64,000 nt of DNA, taken from assembly GCA_024330965.1 (NCBI GenBank), contig JANDJL010000013.1:1-64000 (forward strand). The letters run 5' to 3'. This document shows positions 3,211 to 31,420 of this stretch, piece by piece. Numbering within the stretch: position 1 is the first letter of the stretch; every line of letters starts with the position of its first letter. The translations under genes were made by a program, and so were the position numbers. Under the pieces are notes generated by a model. It was not told the DNA's origin and ran no database searches. It was given only the letters and a program-made list of their open reading frames with translations. The stretch comes from Nitrospira sp. GTDB taxonomy: Bacteria; Nitrospirota; Nitrospiria; Nitrospirales; Nitrospiraceae.

Positions 3211-3977
3211 TCATTCTCAAAACGCCTGCTGAAATCGAAATCATGGCACAGGCGTCGCGAGTGGTTGCCGAAGTACTACAGGTGGTGGAAAGGGCGGTGA
3301 GTCCCGGCATCAGCACGGAGGAACTTGATCAAATCGCCGAGAAGGAGATACGAGCACGGGGGGCCATTCCGGCTTTCAAGGGATATCGAAATTATCCCAA
3401 GACGCTGTGCGTATCTGTCAACGAGCAAGTGGTTCATGGAATTCCTTCTAAGCGGAAGTTGAAAGAGGGAGACATCGTCGGCTTGGATCTTGGAGCCATT
3501 GTGGGGGGGTTTTATGGAGATTCTGCGGTGACAGTGGCCGTCGGCCGTGTCTCCGAGGACGTGCTACGGCTCATCAAGGTGACCGAACAGGCGTTGTATT
3601 TGGGAATCGAACAAGCCGTCGTTGGCAATCGAATCTCCGATATTTCCCACGCGGTTCAGCGCCATGTAGAATCGGCGGGATATTCGGTCGTTACAGAGTT
3701 TGTGGGGCATGGGATCGGCCGGCAGTTACACGAAGAGCCCCAAGTTCCGAATTATGGAAAGCCAGGGCAGGGGCCTCGCCTGCAAAGCGGGATGGTGCTT
3801 GCAATTGAGCCCATGGTGAACATGGGAGGGAGCGCAGTTCGCATACTCGACGATCGGTGGACGGCGGTGACGGTTGACGGCAGCTTATCCGCCCATTTTG
3901 AACACACCATTGCGGTACAACCTAACGGTCCTGCCAAGATTTTGAGTTGGCGTCCGGAAGCGGTCGCCTGCTCGTAG
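3207..3977 (+). CDS. map: Type I methionine aminopeptidase
   Basis: [22 protein letters not shown]...[18 protein letters not shown]...EPMVNMG; ATGA overlap with adk. Confidence 0.96.
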
Positions 3978-4006
3978 GGACGAAGAAAGAAGAGATCAAA
4001 GAGGAC

Positions 4007-4225
4007 GTGGCCAAAGAAGATATTATTGAAGTTCAGGGTACTGTCGCGGAAACATTGCCCAATGCGATGTTTCGAGTGAAACTTGACAATGGACATATAA
4101 TCTTGGCGCATATATCGGGGAAAATGCGGATGCATTTTATTCGTATCCTTCCCGGCGACAAGGTGACTGTGGAAATGTCGCCCTATGATCTGACGAGAGG
4201 GCGGATCACCTATCGATTTAAGTAG
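4007..4225 (+). CDS. infA: Translation initiation factor IF-1
   Basis: (M)[74 protein letters not shown] start at 4007 inferred from family N-terminus. Confidence 0.95.
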
Positions 4226-4242
4226 CGAGGGTATTGGTTGTT

Positions 4243-4356
4243 ATGAAAGTCAAGTCATCGGTGAAACCAATTTGTGCGAAGTGCAGGGTCGTACGGAGGC
4301 GGGGAGTCGTGCGGGTGCTCTGTGAGAATCCCCGCCATAAGCAACGGCAAGGGTGA
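4243..4356 (+). CDS. rpmJ: 50S ribosomal protein L36
   Basis: Not in the ORF track; direct translation gives [37 protein letters not shown] (37 aa), a canonical L36 in the canonical position. Confidence 0.95.
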
Positions 4357-4451
4357 AGATATCGTTCGCCGAGTTCGTGTTGAGCACGGGCCGGTATCTC
4401 GTGCATCGCAGCTGATCGCAGTGAGGAAAGGGTTGACTGAAGGGAGAACAG

Positions 4452-4841
4452 ATGGCACGTATCGCGGGCGTTGATTTGCCGAGGGGAAAACGGATCGACA
4501 TCGGGTTGACCTACATTTATGGAATCGGACGGGCGTCCGCGCAGCACATTCTCAAAGCGGCGGGAGTTGATGGGGCGATCCGCGTGAAAGATCTCAGTGA
4601 AGACCAGATCGTCAAGCTCCGAGAAATCATCGAGCGTGAATACCGTGTGGAAGGTGATCTCCGAAAGGAAGTCGCCCTGAATATCAAGCGGTTAATTGAT
4701 ACAGGGACGTACCGTGGATTGCGCCATCGGAAGGGACTCCCCGTTCGCGGACAACGGACGAAAACGAATGCCAGGACGCGCAAGGGACGACGAGCCGGGG
4801 TCGGGAGCAAGCCGAGGCCGGCTGGAGGGAAAACCGCATAG
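4452..4841 (+). CDS. rpsM: 30S ribosomal protein S13
   Basis: [34 protein letters not shown]...[10 protein letters not shown]. Confidence 0.97.
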
Positions 4842-4882
4842 TACGTCGAATGCAGTGAACGGACCATAATGAGGCAATTGAC

Positions 4883-5266
4883 ATGAGTGTCAAAAAGGGG
4901 AAAAAGAAGGAGCGCCGGATCGTCCAAAGCGGAATCGCGCATGTTCAGGCTTCTTTCAACAACACGATCGTGACCATTACCGACATGAGCGGAAACACGG
5001 TGGTATGGGCGAGTGCGGGCAATCAGGGGTTTAAAGGGTCAAGAAAGAGCACCCCGTTTGCAGCGCAGCGAGCCGGCGAAGCGGCGGCTCGAAAGGCTAT
5101 GGAATGCGGGATGCGGCAGATTGACGTGTATGTCAATGGTCCGGGATCAGGCCGGGAGTCGGCCATTCGCTCGTTGCAGGGGGCGGGATTGCGAATCAAT
5201 TTGATCAGAGACGTCACACCCATTCCGCATAACGGATGTCGTCCGCCCAAACGACGGCGTGTGTAA
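4883..5266 (+). CDS. rpsK: 30S ribosomal protein S11
   Basis: [44 protein letters not shown]...[18 protein letters not shown]. Confidence 0.97.
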
Positions 5267-5376
5267 TGGTGGTCGATAGGGAGCGACGCCGGTTGCGGTG
5301 ATGTGTGACTTGGCTTGTCCGATAGCAGAGGCATCGGTCTCATCGGTCTTCATGGTGACATAACGAGGAGGAAGCA

Positions 5377-6003
5377 GTGGCAAAGTATCGCGGTCCTGTA
5401 TGTCGGCTCTGCCGTCGAGAGGGGGAGAAGTTGTTTCTCAAAGGTGCGCGTTGCATGACGGAGAAGTGTGCCATTGAGCGGCGGAGCTATCCCCCCGGCC
5501 AACACGGGCAAGGCAGGCAGCGGACCTCTGACTACAGCGTGCAATTGCGGGAAAAACAGAAGCTGCGGCGCATTTATGGTCTTCAGGAAAGACAGTTTCG
5601 CGGGGTATTTGAACGCGCCGAACGACAAGTTGGTGTGACAGGCGCTGCGTTGCTCCGTTTGCTCGAGTGCCGTCTTGACAACGTGGCCTATCGATTGGGG
5701 TTCGGCGTTTCACGAAAACAGGCGCGTCAAATTGTCAATCACGGCCATCTGTTGATGAACGGGAAACCCGTGACGGTCGCGGGAGCCCTTGTGAAAGTGG
5801 GCGATGTCATCGAAGTTCGTGAACGAAGCCGGAAACTCGCCATGATCCAAGACGCAGTGGAGACCGTCGAGAGCCGTGGAATTCCGGATTGGCTCGAACT
5901 GGACAAGGGAGCCTTTAAGGGAATTGTCCGTGCGCTGCCGACTAAGGAGCAGATCACGGTGCCCGTGAACGAACAAATGGTTGTGGAGTTGTATTCCAGG
6001 TAG
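5377..6003 (+). CDS. rpsD: 30S ribosomal protein S4
   Basis: MAKYRGPVCRLCRREGEKLFLKG...RLDNVAYRLGFGVSRKQARQIVNHGHLLMNGK. Confidence 0.97.
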   Translation: MAKYRGPVCRLCRREGEKLFLKGARCMTEKCAIERRSYPPGQHGQGRQRTSDYSVQLREKQKLRRIYGLQERQFRGVFERAERQVGVTGAALLRLLECRLDNVAYRLGFGVSRKQARQIVNHGHLLMNGKPVTVAGALVKVGDVIEVRERSRKLAMIQDAVETVESRGIPDWLELDKGAFKGIVRALPTKEQITVPVNEQMVVELYSR

Positions 6004-6090
6004 CGATCGGAAGAGGCGGGCGGAATTGGTTTCTCGTGCCAGATGTTACGCCGGCTGGTCAATTATCTGGATGGTAAATGGGAGGGGGTC

Positions 6091-7092
6091 ATGATCAAGG
6101 CGATGAAGGACTTTCAAATCCCGCTGCGGGTGGAAGTCGACAAAGATACGCTTTCCCCGACATATGGTCGGTTCACGACCGAAGCCTTTGAACGGGGGTT
6201 TGGAACCACAATTGGAAACGCGTTGCGGCGTGTCTTGTTGTCGTCTCTGACGGGTGCTGCCGTCACGATGGTAAAGATCGAAGGGGTGGTGCATGAGTTT
6301 TCAACGATCCCAGGGGTTACGGAAGATGTGACGACAATCATTTTGAATATCAAAAACCTGAGATTGGCGCTGCATACGGATAAACCGAAAACGATTCGTC
6401 TCAAAAAGACGGGGCCCGGTGAGGCGAAAGGATCCGACATCATTCACGATGCAGATGTGACCATCCTAACGCCGGATCTGCATATTGCGACGCTTGACAA
6501 AGATGCCACGCTGGATATTGAAATGATGGTCAAACATGGGCGTGGATACGTTCCCGCCGAGCGCAATAAAGAAGAAGGGGTGCCGATAGGCGTGATTGCG
6601 ATTGATTCGATCTTTTCCCCGATTAGGCGCGTCAATTTCCACGTCGAGAACGCGCGCGTGGGACGTATGACGGACTACGATAAACTGACCATGGAAATCT
6701 GGACCGATGCGACCATCGCTCCGCGCGAGGCGTTGTCTACCGCTGCCAGCATCCTCCGCGAGCACTTGGACATTTTTATCAATCCCGAAGAACGTGCAGA
6801 GGGGAAACCCGAATCCGGTCGCGAAGAGATTCAACGCGAAGTCAACAAACATCTCTCCCGCAGTGTGAATGAGCTCGAGCTGTCCGTGCGCGCGGCAAAT
6901 TGTTTGAAAAACGCCAACATCAAGACCATCGGGGATCTTGTGCAGAAAACCGAAGGAGAAATGTTGCGGACCAAGAATTTCGGGAAGAAGTCCCTCAACG
7001 AAATCAAGGAAATCTTGGCGGAAATGGGACTCTCGCTCGGTACGAAATTGGATGTGGCGCAATCTCACAATGGCGGTCCGAAGTCGGAGTGA
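6091..7092 (+). CDS. rpoA: DNA-directed RNA polymerase subunit alpha
   Basis: [49 protein letters not shown]...; C-terminal CTD; start trimmed to ATG 6091. Confidence 0.96.
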
Positions 7093-7113
7093 TAAGGGTA
7101 AAAGGGGAATACT

Positions 7114-21269: not shown

Positions 21270-21677
<408 letters not shown>

Positions 21678-21919
21678 CGAGGCGATGTCCTTTCGGCTTT
21701 ATTCCAGTCATCAGACCGGGCGGGGTCATCTCAGGCATTCACGTCGTCGCATACACGGTGGCTCCGTTTGACGCGGAAACGGTTGTCAAGCGTAGATACC
21801 CAGACCCCCTGCCGGCCTGGGTGGGCCGCCATGATCGAGTTGACGGATGCTTGATCGACGAGGAGGACCGACTGCCGTTCGGGCGGACTCGTGTGGCTGG
21901 TCTCTGAAAGGAGGAGAGG

Positions 21920-23329
21920 ATGAACGTGCGCGAGGTGTTGGAGTTCGCCAAGAAACACAAGGTGCAGATCGTCGATCTGAAATTTGTCGATTTGCCCGGT
22001 GTGTGGCAGCATATGAGCGTTCCTGTGAGTGAGCTGACGGAACAGTTGTTCAAGGACGGCTCCGGCCTCGATGGATCGTCGATTCGTGGATGGAAAGCGA
22101 TCAATAACAGTGATTTATTGTTGATCCCTGATCCGGCGACGGCCTGTCTTGATCCCTTCACTGCGGTGCCGACGCTCAGTTTGACGGGCAACGTGGTGGA
22201 CCCGGTTTCCCGGCAGAATTATGACCGTGATCCGCGGTACGTGGCTCTGAAGGCCGAGAAGTACCTTCAAAGCACGAAAATCGCCGACACGTCATATTGG
22301 GGGCCGGAGGCGGAGTTTTTTATTTTTGACCATGCCCGCTATGACCAAACGAGTCACAGCGGCTATTACTATCTCGACTCCGAGGAAGGTGTCTGGAACA
22401 TGGGCCAGGAGGGGTTCAATTTGGGCGGGAAGATCCGCCATAAGCAGGGGTACTTCCCGGTGGCGCCGGCGGACACGCAGCAGGATATTCGAAGCGAGAT
22501 GGTACTGGAAATGGAAAAGGTCGGGATCGCCGTGGAAAAGCACCATCACGAGACGGCGACGGCGGGTCAGGCCGAAATCGATATCCGTTTCGACACCCTT
22601 GTCAAAACGGCCGACAACATGATGATGTATAAATACATCGTCAAAAACGTGGCGCGGCGGCACGGCAAAACGGTCACGTTCATGCCTAAGCCCCTCTTCG
22701 GTGACGCGGGGTCCGGCATGCATACCCATCAGAGTCTTTGGAAAGACGGCAAGCCGTTGTTTGCCGGCAAAGAGTATGCGGGTATTTCGCAACTCTGTCT
22801 CTATTACATCGGCGGGATCCTCAAACATGCGCCGGCTCTGGCTGCGTTCACCAACCCGACGACGAACTCCTACAAGCGGATCACGCCTGGATTCGAAGCT
22901 CCCGTGCTGCTGGCCTATTCCAGCAGAAATCGCTCCGCCGGCATCCGCATTCCGATGTATTCGCCCAGCCCAAAGGCCAAACGGATCGAAGTGCGGTTCC
23001 CAGACCCCTCGTGCAACCCCTATCTTGCGTTTCCAGCGATGTTGATGGCGGGGTTGGACGGTATTCAGAACAAGATCAACCCCGGCGAGCCGGCCGAAAA
23101 AGATCTGTACGATCTCGATCCGAAAGAGGCCGCCGGTATTCCCACCATGCCGGGAAGCCTGGACGAAGCGATCGCTTGCCTGGAAAAAGACCATCAGTTT
23201 TTGCTGAAAGGCGAGGTGTTCACCGAAGACCTGATCGAAGCCTGGATCAAGTACAAGCGGGACAAGGAAATCGATCCCCTGAGGTTACGCCCTCATCCCT
23301 ACGAGTTTTTTCTCTATTACGATGTCTAG
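21920..23329 (+). CDS. glnA: Glutamine synthetase type I
   Basis: [15 protein letters not shown]...[15 protein letters not shown]...; [10 protein letters not shown] adenylylation motif with the Tyr codon at 23108-23110 (residue 397). Confidence 0.97.
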
Positions 23330-24037: not shown

Positions 24038-24811
24038 ATGCCGAAACATATCCCGACAGGATTGACAAGAAGCGATATCTTGAAACGATACATTGAACGA
24101 TTCAAGCGACAGATTGATCGATTCCAGCCGTTTCTCTCGAGGAAGCGGGCGTCTGTGTCGATCGATGATTTCGACGAAGAGACTGAAGAACTGATCGCAC
24201 AGGTCTTCGGGGCTGCCTCCGATCAGGCCGAGGCGTATGTGTATGCCAAAACGGGAGAATCCGCGCTTCTGCCGGAGGAGGCGCAGGAGACAGGCGTCCA
24301 TGACGTGGAGCGTGAGAGCCTTCAGCAACGGCGACAGGTCTTGGAAAGCTGCCTGGCCGATTTGGAGATGAGGAGCCGGATACTGGCGAGCAGAGGCACG
24401 AGCCAGAAGGGTGGACGAGAAGAACGGACGTTGGTCCAGCATTATACGTCGTATGATGTGCGAAGCATCGCTCGAACGTCGACGATCAAAGAGGTGGGGA
24501 AGACGTTCCAAAAATATCGAATCGACGCGCTGATCGTGGATGACGGCTCCCGCTACATCGGGATCATTACCGACTCAGACCTAAGTCGAAAAGCCATCGC
24601 CAAGGGCCTTGATCCCAACACCACGACAGTGGCCTCCTGTATGAGTCGATCCATCGTGACGATCGAAGAGGACGAACCCCTTGCCAATGCGCTCGCGCTC
24701 ATGAAAAAACACGCGATTAGGCATATTCCGGTTACCGCCGATGGGACCATCATCGGTGTCTTGTCTGCGTCGGATCTCCTCCGTGCATTGGAGGATCGAC
24801 TGTCTTCTTGA
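24038..24811 (+). CDS. CBS-domain protein (two C-terminal CBS motifs)
   Basis: VGKTFQKYRIDALIVDDGSRYIGIITDSDLSRKAI ... VASCMSRSIVTIEEDEPLANALALMKKHAIRHIPVTADGTIIGVLSASDLLRAL. Confidence 0.9.
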   Translation: MPKHIPTGLTRSDILKRYIERFKRQIDRFQPFLSRKRASVSIDDFDEETEELIAQVFGAASDQAEAYVYAKTGESALLPEEAQETGVHDVERESLQQRRQVLESCLADLEMRSRILASRGTSQKGGREERTLVQHYTSYDVRSIARTSTIKEVGKTFQKYRIDALIVDDGSRYIGIITDSDLSRKAIAKGLDPNTTTVASCMSRSIVTIEEDEPLANALALMKKHAIRHIPVTADGTIIGVLSASDLLRALEDRLSS

Positions 24812-25075
24812 CCTCCACCGAATCGCACCCCGTCTCGAAGTGGGAGGGGTGCAGCCGGCTTCCTCTCTAAGGTCGTAAGGCATTGAATATTGAGGCTGTA
24901 CCATCTCGGCCATTCTGTCGGGATCTTCCTTCTGTCTCCTGCCGGAAAAGTTGAGGAAAACATGGGAAAAATAGGCAAAACACGACGTTTACCAAGGCCT
25001 CGTTTTTGCTCTGCCGATCATGGTCCCATGGCCTTTTGCGTGGGATGGTTGCAAAAAATGAGGAGGACTCCCGAA

Positions 25076-26017
25076 ATGGCCCAACGAATGTCCGCATCCG
25101 ACCTCTATCAGCGCGGGTTGGTGCTGAAAAAAGCGCACATGTTCCACATGGCGATCGAGGATTTCGAGCAAGCCGCGCGCGATCCCCAATATGCCCCCCA
25201 GGCGTACATTCAGATGGCATTGTGCTGGAGGGCCGTTGATCGCGCTGACGAAGCCGTTGCGGCGTTTCGTCGAGCAGCGGCTTCTCCGATCCTGTCCTCC
25301 GAGGAACGGATGCATGTGCTCTATCACATGGGTCGGCTATTGGAGGAGCAGGGTCGGTTCTCTGAAAGTTTGGAACTCTATGGGGTGATTAGAAAAGAGA
25401 GCCCGGACTTTGGCGACGTGGCGCTCCGCATCAAGCGTCTCTGCAGCGGAGAACGCAGATCCATGACAGTGACTCGTGGTTCGCGATCGATTCGCCGAGC
25501 AACGAGTTCGTCGTGGGGGCTCTGGGTCAAATCGTTTTTCCAACAAACCGGGCGGTGGCTGGATCGAACCTCTCAAGCCATGCCGGAACCTTCTGTGAGT
25601 CGGCTCGGTCATCCTCGGAATCAAGGTCGTGGCGCGAGCGAGTTGCACTCTTTCTCGGGCCCGCATGAGGGTGCAGAGGCCGACCAGGCGCTGAAAAAGC
25701 GGACCGTCGAGCATCGCCGGTGCAAGCGCGTGCCGATTCGCTTGCCAAGCTCATTTGCCGCCAAAGGGCGCATGGTTGCCGGAAAAGGCGAGGTGTGTGA
25801 TCTGTCTCCCTGGGGATGTCGGATCAGCAGCGCGGTGTCCGTTCCGATCGGCACCGACATGCAGTGCTGCATTTTTTCCGGCCGTTCCGGTGACGCCCTC
25901 ATGATCGAGGGGGCAACGGTGCGTTGGATCGGTCCGAGGGAGTTCGGCCTCGCCTTCACCAAGATCAGCCCGGCTGTGCAAGAGCAATTGGTACGGTTGT
26001 GCGGAGTCGCCGCCTGA
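25076..26017 (+). CDS. TPR-PilZ domain protein, likely c-di-GMP-responsive
   Basis: N-terminal TPR-like helices (SASDLYQRGLVLKKAHMFHMAIEDFEQAARDPQYAPQAYIQMALCW); C-terminal PilZ with RxxxR (RVPIR) and DxSxxG (DLSPWG); start trimmed. Confidence 0.82.
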   Translation: MAQRMSASDLYQRGLVLKKAHMFHMAIEDFEQAARDPQYAPQAYIQMALCWRAVDRADEAVAAFRRAAASPILSSEERMHVLYHMGRLLEEQGRFSESLELYGVIRKESPDFGDVALRIKRLCSGERRSMTVTRGSRSIRRATSSSWGLWVKSFFQQTGRWLDRTSQAMPEPSVSRLGHPRNQGRGASELHSFSGPHEGAEADQALKKRTVEHRRCKRVPIRLPSSFAAKGRMVAGKGEVCDLSPWGCRISSAVSVPIGTDMQCCIFSGRSGDALMIEGATVRWIGPREFGLAFTKISPAVQEQLVRLCGVAA

Positions 26018-26661: not shown

Positions 26662-27051
26662 CTAGAAGTCATCGGTTGAGACCGGGCGGAGAAGATCCCG
26701 AACGGACAGGACCCCCACGACGGTGTCGGCCTTGCGCACGACGAGGTGCCGGACACCGTATCGGTACATCAAGTCAGCCGCTTCCGTAATAGGACGTCGT
26801 TCATCGATGCCGATGAGCGGGGCGCTCATGATCACGCCGATCGGAAACAAGGCCGGTTCTTGGCCGTTCCCCACCACTTTTCGGACGATATCGGATTCCG
26901 TCACAATGCCGACAATGTGGCGATCATGTTCCACAAGAATGCTCCCGACCCGATGGGCCGACATGGACTTCGCTGCCTCGACGGCATTCATTGTTCCTGG
27001 TGCTGTCACGAGCTTGTGATTCATGAGCTGTCCGACGGTGACCATCGACAT
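26662..27051 (-). CDS. CBS-domain pair protein
   Basis: VGQLMNHKLVTAPGTMNAVEAAKSMSAHRVGSILVEHDRHIVGIVTESDIVRKVV ... YGVRHLVVRKADTVVGVLSVRDLLRPV. Confidence 0.88.
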   Translation of the reverse strand: MSMVTVGQLMNHKLVTAPGTMNAVEAAKSMSAHRVGSILVEHDRHIVGIVTESDIVRKVVGNGQEPALFPIGVIMSAPLIGIDERRPITEAADLMYRYGVRHLVVRKADTVVGVLSVRDLLRPVSTDDF

Positions 27052-27374: not shown

Positions 27375-29648
27375 TCAGAGCCTCCCAAACGTTCGTTCGA
27401 AAAATTCTCGCGTCCGGCTCATGTGTTGCTCGATGTCAGCCTGGAGATGCCGTGCGCCGGTCTGCCAGTCGTCGGTCATGTAACCGACGCGACGGGCGAG
27501 GAAGATCAGTTCGTCCGAACCAGGAGGTGGAAGCACAAGGTCCTTGGTGTTGCCCCGCACCATGCGAAGCCCGTCGATTAACATTCGGATGAATAGATAA
27601 GCTTTGCGCAGTTCCTCACCCGTCTCACGTGGAATAATGCCGCTGTCGACCAGGGCTGCCAATGCCTGAAGTGTGTTCGGGGTGCGCAGGCGGGGGTCCT
27701 TGTGTCCGTGCATGAGCTGCAAATATTGAACGGCATACTCGATGGTGACGATGCCGCCGTGGCTATGTTTCAGGTTCACCTGGCCCGGTTTGACGAACTG
27801 GGCGATCTGCTGGCGGCGCAACTCGAGCGCTGCGGCAAGGTCCCAGGGAGCGCCGCTATAGACGTAGCCGTCACGATGGGCTTCCACTTTCTTGCCCAGA
27901 GCCGAGTCTCCGGCGACGAACCGGAGTTTGATCAAGGCTTGTCGCTCAAACGGCGCGGCCAAGCCTCGCGGACTGTAGTAGGAGCAGATTTCGTCAAAGG
28001 CGTTGGCCAGCGAACCCTTGTCGCCATGGGGCCGCAGGCGGACGTCCAGGTGAAAGATGCCCTCGCGTTTGGCTTCGATCCGTTGCAGCAGTTCTTGCGC
28101 CAGCCGTTCGAAGTACTCGCTGTTGTCGATGGATTGTTTCCCGGTCGTGCGGCCTGGTCCTTCGTACACGAAGAGCACCTCGATGTCCGATGCATATCCC
28201 ATCTCCCGCCCGCCGAATTTGCCGGCCCCGAAAATGGCAAAGGAGCAGGGTCTCCTGTCGGCAAGCTTGGGCGAACCATACAGCCGGTCAAGTTTGGCTC
28301 GACAGTCGACGAGAGCGCGGTCGATGATCGCCTCCGCCAACTGGGTGATGGCCAAGGAGAAATCCGGGAGACTCGTCGATGGCTCGACGATGTGTTTCAT
28401 ATCGATGCGGAACAGCTCGCGGTCTTTGAATCGGTTTAAGGCCGCCTTCTTGGCTTCGTCGGTTTTCGCGTTGTTGACGATCGCGTTCAGTTCTTTGCGC
28501 AACGCAGCGGGTGATTTGATGAGCGGTTCGTCTCTGTAGTTTTGTAAGAGCGGGAGCAGGTTGTCGTACTGGCGGCGGAGGAAATCTTCCCAGAGGAAAT
28601 CGCTTGCACCGAGCAGGCGTGCGAGGACGGGAAGACTTTTCTTGTCGCTCACGAACGACAGGGCTTTGCGTGCGCCCTTGCCTTGATCCTGCACGATCAG
28701 ATCGAGAAATTGGTCAAAGGCTTCCAAGGCCCTGGCCGGATCCGGCGCCCATGTGAGGGCATGAGTGAACTGTTTGATCAGAACAGCGGTCAAGCGAAGC
28801 TGCTCCTGCTCGGCGTGATCCAGCAATTTGTGTCCGTGCCGATTGCGGACAAAAAATCGGTCGTGGATCTTCGCCCCGACGCTTTCGACCTGGGCCTTAC
28901 TGAGGTAGATGTTGCGCATGGCCAGAGCATTGGCGAATGCGTAGAGGAAAGCAGGTGTGTCGTCGGACTGAATCTCCATGACGGTGTCGGTGGGAGATCG
29001 GCTGTTGTCGAACGTAATGTGCACGGTGTGGAGGAGGCCGCTGAAGGACCCGCGTCGTTTGCCGAGTCGCTCGATCAATCGCCGGTTCACGGCTTGGCGC
29101 GTTTCAGCGTATTGTCCGACGTCAAGGCGCTTCAAGAGGTCGGTGAGTTCCGATATAAAGCGCCGGCGTTCGGACGGTCCGAACGCCGCATCGGTTCCCC
29201 TCCGTACAAGGAACACGTCGACGATCTTCTTCCTCGTCAAGCCTGGCCTGATTTTGTGGTGGTCGCCCGGAGCCGTTCGGGATTGGTTGCCGGGAGACGC
29301 CGGCATCGACCGTTCCGAAAACGTATAGATCTGGCCTTCCTCGATGTTCAAGCCAAAAGCGGACAAGAGGCCACAGATGACGGCGAATTCGGAGAAATAA
29401 TCATAGGCGACGATGGTGACGGTGAACCGCTCTTTACCTTGGTCGGCGATCGCGATTTCACAGGGGTGATCCGGCGAGAGTTGCGCGATCAAGCCGATGT
29501 GATGGGCGATCGTAGCCGGCTCGAAACGCAGGAAATAGTCGGGATCCATGCGGCTTAAAAAATCTTGCAGGACGTCGGGAGGAATGTTTCGACAGAGGGG
29601 AAGAAGCAGGTGGGACAGCCGTTCGCGTTCCGAGGTGGAAGATGTCAT
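27375..29648 (-). CDS. ACT-like domain(s) fused to GlnE C-terminal-half-type adenylyltransferase
   Basis: ACT-like segments (FTVTIVAYDYFSEFAVICGLLSAFGLNIEEGQIYTF; DDTPAFLYAFANALAMRNIYLSKAQVESVGAKIHDRFFV), then NTase FAIFGAGKFGGREMGYASDIEVLFVYEG and GlnE C-half KHSHGGIVTIEYAVQYLQL. Confidence 0.82.
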   Translation of the reverse strand: MTSSTSERERLSHLLLPLCRNIPPDVLQDFLSRMDPDYFLRFEPATIAHHIGLIAQLSPDHPCEIAIADQGKERFTVTIVAYDYFSEFAVICGLLSAFGLNIEEGQIYTFSERSMPASPGNQSRTAPGDHHKIRPGLTRKKIVDVFLVRRGTDAAFGPSERRRFISELTDLLKRLDVGQYAETRQAVNRRLIERLGKRRGSFSGLLHTVHITFDNSRSPTDTVMEIQSDDTPAFLYAFANALAMRNIYLSKAQVESVGAKIHDRFFVRNRHGHKLLDHAEQEQLRLTAVLIKQFTHALTWAPDPARALEAFDQFLDLIVQDQGKGARKALSFVSDKKSLPVLARLLGASDFLWEDFLRRQYDNLLPLLQNYRDEPLIKSPAALRKELNAIVNNAKTDEAKKAALNRFKDRELFRIDMKHIVEPSTSLPDFSLAITQLAEAIIDRALVDCRAKLDRLYGSPKLADRRPCSFAIFGAGKFGGREMGYASDIEVLFVYEGPGRTTGKQSIDNSEYFERLAQELLQRIEAKREGIFHLDVRLRPHGDKGSLANAFDEICSYYSPRGLAAPFERQALIKLRFVAGDSALGKKVEAHRDGYVYSGAPWDLAAALELRRQQIAQFVKPGQVNLKHSHGGIVTIEYAVQYLQLMHGHKDPRLRTPNTLQALAALVDSGIIPRETGEELRKAYLFIRMLIDGLRMVRGNTKDLVLPPPGSDELIFLARRVGYMTDDWQTGARHLQADIEQHMSRTREFFERTFGRL

Positions 29649-29695
29649 GGTCGCCAGTATACCGGAATGCCGCAGAACAGTATAATGCCCCTGTT

Positions 29696-31420
29696 ATGGT
29701 TCGTCGTCCCAGACCGTCGTCCGTTCGTTCGGCGAGTGAGCCGGCTCCTATTCAGACCGGCAAGCCAGACCCCAGACCGCTCTTGCTCGCGTCGGATCGC
29801 AACCTCGATCGGATGCGGGCGATCCTTTCTGCGTACCGACTGCGCGACGTTGAGCAGGCCGATCGCAATCTGCAATCGATGGCGGGTGAGCCGCACCATC
29901 GACGTCAATTAGCCGACCTCTTGCCTCGACTGTTGGCTTCGATTTCTGGGACGGCGGACCCGGATCAAGCGCTGAATCATTGGGAACGTTTGTTGAGCGG
30001 TCTGACGCGAGGCGCCTTGCTTGAGTATCTGGCCGGGGCCCCGCGCATGCTTGATCTGCTTTGCGTGATCTTCGGCAACAGCGACGCGCTCGCCTGTACG
30101 ATCATTCGTGATCCTCTATTGGTTTACTGGCTGGGTGAACAAGAGGTCTTGTCGAAGCCGGTCAGCCGGGCTGAAATGGAACGGTCGCTTCATGAACAGT
30201 TGGCGAGATTGACGGTCACCGAACTCAAACTGGATGTGTTGCGCCGCCACCGGCGGCGGGAACTGCTGCGCATCGGCGTGCGCGATCTGCTGCGTCTTGC
30301 CGACGTACAGGAAACGACCGCTGCTCTCTCCGATTTGGCGGGCGTATTGATCCATGCGGCCTACCAGATCGTCGATGCCGATCTGCGTCGGCAGTACGGC
30401 GTGCCGATGCACAAAAATCGGTTTGGGCGGTGGGTGGAGACGGGATTTGCCGTGATCGGAATGGGCAAGCTCGGCGGGCACGAGCTCAACTACAGTTCCG
30501 ACGTCGATTTGATCTATGTTTACGCGTCGCGCAAGGGAGAGACGCGAATGCCTCGGCGCACATCGGATGCACCCGGTGCGGTCGGCATCTCCAATGAAGA
30601 ATACTTCGAAATCCTCTCTCGTGAGCTGACGAGAGCCTTGACCGAAAAGACGAACGAGGGATCCGTGTTTCGCGTGGATCTTCGATTACGGGCCGAGGGG
30701 GCGGTCGGGCAGTTAGCTCGGTCGCTTGACGACTATGCCGCGTACTATCGAAACCGCGGTGCGGTATGGGAAAGACTGGCGCTGCTCAAGGCCTGGCCGG
30801 TTGCCGGATCGTTGGAGGTGGGGCGGGCGTTTCTCAAAATAGTCAGGCCGTTCATCGTCGGCGGGCCGAAGGAGAAATCGGATGCTCACCGTGCGCGGGC
30901 TATCGTGCGCGACGTGCGGAGCATCAAAGAGATGATCGATGCGAAGATCGCCGATCGCGGCCAGGAGCGGCGGAATGTGAAGCTCGGCATCGGCGGAATT
31001 CGCGAGGTCGAGTTTTTGGTGCAGACGATCCAAGTGATCGCAGGCAAGCGGCTTCCGGGTCTCCTGGATCGGAATACACTTCGGTCGTTGGATCGATGCG
31101 CCCACTATCGGTTGATCTCGAAACGGCAGCGGGATGAATTGGTCGCCGCGTATTTGTTTCTCCGGGATGTTGAGCACAAGCTTCAGATGGTTGATGATTT
31201 ACAGACGCATACTCTTCCGAAGGACGATGAGGCGTTGGAACGGTGCGCAATTCGAATGGGATACGACGCCCATGATGCAAAGCGAGGCGTCAAGCGGTTT
31301 CATGAGGACCATAGTGCTCATCGAGAAGCAGTTCGCCGGCTGTTCTCGTCGTTGTTCATGGAGCCTGATACCTCTCCGATGCTGAAATCGGTGCTGCAGG
31401 CCGTCGAAACGGAGGGCTGA
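29696..31420 (+). CDS. GlnE N-terminal-half-type adenylyltransferase/adenylyl-removase
   Basis: FAVIGMGKLGGHELNYSSDVDLIYVYAS; NVKLGIGGIREVEFLVQTIQ; LVAAYLFLRDVEHKLQMVDDLQTHTLP. An alternative start at 29642 has an SD-like GAGGTGG, so the N-terminus is uncertain. Confidence 0.85.
   Translation: MVRRPRPSSVRSASEPAPIQTGKPDPRPLLLASDRNLDRMRAILSAYRLRDVEQADRNLQSMAGEPHHRRQLADLLPRLLASISGTADPDQALNHWERLLSGLTRGALLEYLAGAPRMLDLLCVIFGNSDALACTIIRDPLLVYWLGEQEVLSKPVSRAEMERSLHEQLARLTVTELKLDVLRRHRRRELLRIGVRDLLRLADVQETTAALSDLAGVLIHAAYQIVDADLRRQYGVPMHKNRFGRWVETGFAVIGMGKLGGHELNYSSDVDLIYVYASRKGETRMPRRTSDAPGAVGISNEEYFEILSRELTRALTEKTNEGSVFRVDLRLRAEGAVGQLARSLDDYAAYYRNRGAVWERLALLKAWPVAGSLEVGRAFLKIVRPFIVGGPKEKSDAHRARAIVRDVRSIKEMIDAKIADRGQERRNVKLGIGGIREVEFLVQTIQVIAGKRLPGLLDRNTLRSLDRCAHYRLISKRQRDELVAAYLFLRDVEHKLQMVDDLQTHTLPKDDEALERCAIRMGYDAHDAKRGVKRFHEDHSAHREAVRRLFSSLFMEPDTSPMLKSVLQAVETEG

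Follow-up and report, generated by a model that had tools for sequence, protein, structure and literature searches.

How does a bacterium control glutamine synthetase (GS) when GlnE, the enzyme that both adds AMP to it and removes it, is divided between two genes? This question is raised by positions 27375-31420 of a 64,000-nucleotide stretch of Nitrospira sp. (assembly GCA_024330965.1, contig JANDJL010000013.1, positions 1 to 64,000 of the forward strand), hereafter the window. In Escherichia coli GlnE, the C-terminal half AMPylates GS and the N-terminal half deAMPylates it (PMC12409994). In the window, the minus-strand gene (27375-29648) encodes a 757-amino-acid chimera, here called ACT-GlnE, of a GlnD-type sensor module and one GlnE nucleotidyltransferase (NTase) half, probably of the adenylyltransferase (AT) type. 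The plus-strand gene (29696-31420) encodes a short GlnE of the N-half, adenylyl-removing (AR, or deadenylylase) type, 574 amino acids long from the ATG favoured by the family alignment. From sequence comparisons, we hold with slightly better than even confidence that the pair forms a split GS adenylylation cycle of the class Nitrospiria, in which the transferase half would sense glutamine directly. If so, a textbook bicyclic cascade has undergone a natural, class-wide rewiring, with its opposing activities unlinked and a probable glutamine sensor on one enzyme.

The first-pass annotation, made from the sequence alone, had described the two GlnE halves as separate genes on opposite strands, and both open reading frames (ORFs) and the motifs it quoted are indeed present. 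Each protein has a single match to the GlnE NTase domain PF03710 (E-values of 8e-44 and 1.8e-60; 150 and 205 bits against a cut-off of 24) and a single match to the C-terminal helical domain PF08335. In ACT-GlnE these domains lie at 27882-28625 and 27390-27785 on the minus strand, and the NTase domain of short GlnE lies at 30059-30838 on the plus strand, with a canonical D-V-D motif at ~30500-30508. Both proteins score below cut-off against the NCBIfam full-length GlnE equivalogs. The annotation had also allowed that a full-length GlnE elsewhere could make these genes paralogs with another role, but a search of the whole window genome (2.86 Mb, 93% complete) returned no PF03710 or PF08335 matches beyond the two genes, which argues against this. 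The window genome thus has no fused GlnE, and each gene holds one GlnE half. The short GlnE ORF as mechanically listed spans 29642-31420 (+; 592 amino acids). However, its Met19 is invariant in an alignment with 28 relatives and a length of 574 amino acids is normal for the family, which makes 29696 a more probable start than 29642. With that start, a 47-bp divergent spacer (29649-29695) separates the genes, and a scan of it for promoters and terminators found nothing.

The arrangement is widespread in the window's class. We surveyed 246 genomes of the phylum, 89 of them from Nitrospiria and 157 from outside it, and found the ACT-GlnE chimera in 82 of the 89 and in none of the 157. The fused GlnEs read outside the class were ~950-1200 amino acids long. 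ACT-GlnE and short GlnE were adjacent in every fetched class genome in which both were readable, a recurrence that argues against a chance arrangement, and also in most of the 80 named GTDB loci, which were the best 80 of 226 relatives in that scan. Orientation varied, being divergent in families f1, f2, f5, and f8 and convergent in f3, f6, and f7, and in one locus (L101) the short GlnE gene was broken in two. Holders of the pair include Nitrospira moscoviensis, a Candidatus Manganitrophaceae metagenome-assembled genome (MAG), and Nitrospira MAGs from established comammox lineages. Titles among the best 80 GTDB relatives were of Nitrospirota type, save one labeled Acidobacteria and one labeled uncultured Nitrosospira. 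In a plasmid collection that includes some whole chromosomes, the listed matches covered the GlnE part of the chimera and not the ACT part. Given the scope of these two scans, ACT-GlnE may still occur more sparsely elsewhere.

A few loci stood apart from this distribution. The one labeled Acidobacteria (L251, QHXD01000509.1) has a Nitrospiria-type pair; misbinning or mislabeling is likely, and otherwise it would be a case outside the phylum. Among genomes G161, G243, G197, and G216, two small class members (1.8-1.9 Mb) lacked any GlnE-half match yet kept GlnD, and the two others had one weak match only, a pattern that would fit loss of the ACT half alone or of both genes. In another class of the phylum, locus L090 (G054:C125) carries GlnE as two same-strand ORFs (3931-5634 and 5647-7104; 567 and 485 amino acids) 12 bp apart; either the gene was split independently here, or the draft assembly contains a frameshift.

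What, then, does the chimera add to a GlnE half? The first-pass annotation had noticed ACT-like segments at the start of ACT-GlnE, and profile and structure searches both bear this out. The sensor module (amino acids 18-295; 28764-29597, minus strand) consists of a linker followed by ACT1 (63-176, with a disordered insert at ~109-142) and ACT2 (210-295), as delimited from the secondary structure of a model. It is the counterpart of the C-terminal region of GlnD. When compared with a GlnD alignment by hhalign, amino acids 18-287 matched with 99.3% probability (E 2.3e-20) over the linker and both ACT domains of GlnD, almost as far as its C-terminus. NCBIfam GlnD models aligned their C-terminal ACT region to amino acids 22-289 at up to 90 bits, and PF24931 scored 27.6 bits against a cut-off of 27. 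ACT-GlnE does not have the full make-up of GlnD (a GlnD NTase, an HD domain, and two ACT domains), and its match to TIGR01693 involved the ACT end only, at 81 bits as a protein and 77 bits in the genome scan against a cut-off of 519. An AlphaFold model (33 sequences, pLDDT 84) predicted two beta-beta-alpha-beta-beta-alpha domains followed by the GlnE helical and NTase domains. Foldseek searches with this model returned the E. coli GlnE halves at the top (E ~1e-17) and, at lower ranks with weak E-values, ACT proteins such as large glutamate dehydrogenase, GcvR, SerB2, and the IlvA regulatory domain; these are different enzymes whose likeness is of fold only. Because the GlnD model matches, the full-module hhalign alignment, and the two domains of ACT topology in the model agree, the N-terminal module is assigned to the GlnD-sensor type with a predicted paired ACT fold, and glutamine is its probable, putative ligand.

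The division of labor between the two proteins was approached through trees of NTase halves, in which halves of fused GlnEs from the phylum and from E. coli were placed with short GlnE and ACT-GlnE. Short GlnE grouped with N-halves and ACT-GlnE with C-halves with support of 100/100, and a second tree put them on the same sides. Short GlnE is also N-type at most positions that distinguish N-halves from C-halves and carries the GGIREIEF-type motif, and its model comes closest to the N-terminal (AR) structure from E. coli (TM score 0.84, 32% identity). Its identity as an N-half of the deadenylylase type is therefore well supported, and the annotation's assignment of the AR half to this protein stands.

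The expected target of the pair lies close by. The type I glutamine synthetase gene glnA (21920-23329, plus strand; 673 bits against TIGR00653) ends ~4 kb from the GlnE pair and encodes the adenylylation-site tyrosine in the context EKDLYDLDP. An LY motif at this site was found in 35 of the 38 GlnA ORFs read, including that of the window, and the GS target tyrosine site is, by sequence, intact. Upstream, glnB (21339-21677, plus strand) encodes a PII protein that keeps the T-loop tyrosine Tyr51 (YRGQEY). The 242-bp glnB-glnA spacer (21678-21919) is the site of glnD in relatives, and no glnD remnant was detected in it.

Indeed, GlnD itself is missing from part of the class. Of 117 class genomes, 89 have a canonical GlnD above the cut-off, and a scan for it found none in the window genome or in most of its genus. 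Within the family, members with GlnD have the order glnB-glnD-glnA, and in members without it glnB adjoins glnA, which means that a break in the assembly at this site does not explain the missing gene. A tree built from the concatenated pair shows three changes in GlnD presence: GlnD is lacking from a large clade that includes MAG UW-LDO-01, it is lacking from the window lineage, and a fragment of it turns up in one genome (G070) inside the large clade. Gene-tree discordance could lower the count of losses. Loss of PII Tyr51 after loss of GlnD was considered and not seen, as the residue is kept in genomes without GlnD. One 240-contig MAG inside the large GlnD-lacking clade (G070) contains a glnD fragment at C65:1284-3422, with glnB and glnA adjacent at C142:29703; the fragment is probably a contaminating contig. 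The annotation's suggestion that the transferase half senses an effector directly is strengthened by the full-length match of the module to the GlnD sensor region and by the retention of ACT-GlnE where GlnD is missing, but glutamine sensing itself is still putative.

Several observations weigh against the reading of the pair as a split, glutamine-sensing cycle. The first concerns the ancestry of the ACT half, which sits on a long stem (1.36 changes per column). About half of its diagnostic residues are C-type (~4 C-like, 3 N-like, and 1 its own), and approximately unbiased (AU) tests gave p values between 0.07 and 0.38 for alternative placements: 0.38 outside the C-halves, 0.098 with short GlnE, and 0.074 with the N-halves. 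Descent from an N-half together with short GlnE is disfavored (lnL 19 lower) and not rejected at 5%. As the tests reject no alternative and the diagnostic residues are so mixed, the ACT-GlnE NTase, the annotation's AT half, is likely, rather than securely, a C-half of the adenylylase type, the better of uncertain options. Second, although the Asp of the DxxG ligand loop is kept in both ACT domains, its glycine is replaced in each (D-Y-F-S in ACT1 and D-T-P-A in ACT2). Third, GlnD is retained alongside ACT-GlnE in most of the class, which means that the sensor did not simply take the place of GlnD. Finally, the active site itself has changed. The catalytic motif of ACT-GlnE, D488-I-E490 (28179-28187, minus strand), reads D-x-E in place of the D-x-D that ends the GlnE pattern GX11-D-x-D, equivalent to a change of D703 to Glu in E. 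coli numbering. This is true of all 21 chimeras compared residue by residue and of 60/60 further chimeras, whereas short GlnE keeps D-V-D. In the same numbering, the changes R618 to N, T743 to K/R, W782 to F, and F857 to Y are found clade-wide in the chimeras, along with E to I at the position of E381 of the E. coli N-half. All are fixed or nearly so (n = 21), and the same positions keep the ancestral residue in N-halves, C-halves, and short GlnEs.

These changes, together with the constant proximity of the two genes, could instead indicate that ACT-GlnE is a catalytically altered or inactive glutamine-sensing subunit that controls short GlnE by contact, with short GlnE alone performing both reactions. 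We consider this main rival unlikely, though deserving of attention, because short GlnE bears the signatures of an N-half, or deadenylylase, and because purifying selection has preserved metal ligands 1 and 3 of ACT-GlnE together with the remainder of its active site: GxGKxGG, E, the first and third Asp, RLRP, K, and GG..E are all retained. Moreover, D-x-E is found in working NTases. ANT(4') has Glu at the place of the second Asp, so at least one NTase is active with this residue, and PDB entries of an ANT(4') “E52D mutant” turned up in our structure search. The D-x-E motif and the other clade-wide changes nevertheless make altered catalysis a possibility, and the ACT-GlnE NTase may be a constrained domain whose catalytic role has shifted.

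An active site unlike those of the GS-modifying halves, joined to a GlnD sensor, might also suggest that ACT-GlnE modifies a different protein, such as PII at Tyr51 or some other target, and so takes over part of the work of GlnD. The retention of Tyr51 in genomes lacking GlnD fits this idea, but the residue can be conserved in PII proteins that are not modified. Given that GlnD is present in so much of the class, a vacancy is unlikely to have existed when the chimera arose, and the NTase of ACT-GlnE is GlnE-like rather than GlnD-like. We regard a different target as improbable.

Could both genes instead be leftovers of an ancestral GlnE, with no working GS cycle? The sole point in its favor is that the ACT half deviates from consensus. 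By contrast, the genes are open, adjacent, and conserved class-wide at 45-87% identity, with whole-gene ratios of nonsynonymous to synonymous substitution (dN/dS) of about 0.1 or less. This conservation rules out chance or decayed ORFs and already contradicts the idea of leftovers, which we consider extremely improbable. For ACT-GlnE, dN/dS was 0.06-0.11 against two near relatives and was low in the sensor and NTase parts alike, so the gene is under strong purifying selection.

Returning to the split cycle as the preferred reading, short GlnE would act as the deadenylylase half and ACT-GlnE as the adenylylating half with a GlnD-type sensor at its N-terminus. When nitrogen is plentiful, glutamine bound to the ACT pair would stimulate the addition of AMP to the GS tyrosine; as glutamine falls, short GlnE would strip the AMP away. 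In genomes with GlnD, ACT-GlnE would provide a second glutamine input. In those without it, PII would not be uridylylated by GlnD, and ACT-GlnE would be the sole known glutamine input to GS remaining, while 2-oxoglutarate and adenylate levels could still be signaled by PII through binding. In this scheme, we infer the AT activity, the glutamine ligand, and the direction of control.

The loss of GlnD has a particular bearing on complete ammonia oxidizers. The window genome encodes AmoA (G000 C39:280-987), by which it is assigned to a comammox bacterium. Within the genus, GlnD was found in 2/26 genomes with ammonia monooxygenase vs. 9/18 without it (Fisher p 0.003, without correction for phylogeny), and it is kept in N. 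moscoviensis and in the CG24A/RSF6 lineage. It is conceivable, and we suggest it tentatively and with less than even confidence, that comammox Nitrospira have pared the two-tier GlnD-PII-GlnE cascade down to a one-tier switch, in which a grafted GlnD sensor reads glutamine and drives GS adenylylation opposite a separate deadenylylase. Loss of GlnD would thus have been allowed, perhaps more than once. If true, this one-tier switch would operate in bacteria for which ammonia is the source of energy as well as of nitrogen, and the system bears on how ammonia oxidizers divide ammonia between energy generation and growth. Because the upper tier is gone in a clade that includes comammox bacteria, these organisms offer a direct test of whether the ACT sensor alone can run the GS cycle.

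Each domain of the pair is known from other systems. With GlnE (E. coli b3053; PF03710; PDB 1v4a, 3k7d), the two proteins share the NTase fold, active-site motifs, and the PF08335 helical domain, and counterparts of the N-half and, probably, the C-half are both present along with the GlnA target tyrosine. Unlike GlnE, the Nitrospiria halves are two proteins from divergent or convergent genes with no covalent link, and the AT-type half has an N-terminal GlnD-like ACT module and a D-x-E motif. With GlnD (TIGR01693, the PII uridylyltransferase/uridylyl-removing enzyme), ACT-GlnE shares the linker and the pair of ACT domains, and the alignment spans the entire module. However, it has neither a GlnD-type NTase nor an HD domain, and its module is N-terminal to a GlnE half rather than C-terminal. 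The combination of a GlnD sensor and a GlnE half with a separate partner gene therefore fits neither the GlnE nor the GlnD definition as a whole, and our literature search for ACT-GlnE or a split GlnE found no description. The two activities can reportedly sit on separate polypeptides, Jaggi et al. being said to have expressed the halves of the E. coli adenylyltransferase (ATase) separately in 1997 (a study cited in PMC12409994), but those halves are laboratory truncations with no ACT sensor, whereas the Nitrospiria split is natural and class-wide. Similarly, E. coli ATase reportedly responds to glutamine, according to the title of a 2007 paper by Jiang, Mayo, and Ninfa. Direct glutamine sensing in general would thus not be new; the dedicated ACT module and the split enzyme would be.

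Other genes in the neighborhood and genome complete the picture of the locus. Between glnA and the GlnE pair lie two genes for proteins with CBS-domain pairs (24038-24811, plus strand, and 26662-27051, minus strand), which flank a gene for a TPR-PilZ protein (24890-26017). The window genome also holds three PII-family genes, at C4:21339, C46:31176, and C5:19169, the third of which is a distant member scoring 33 bits.

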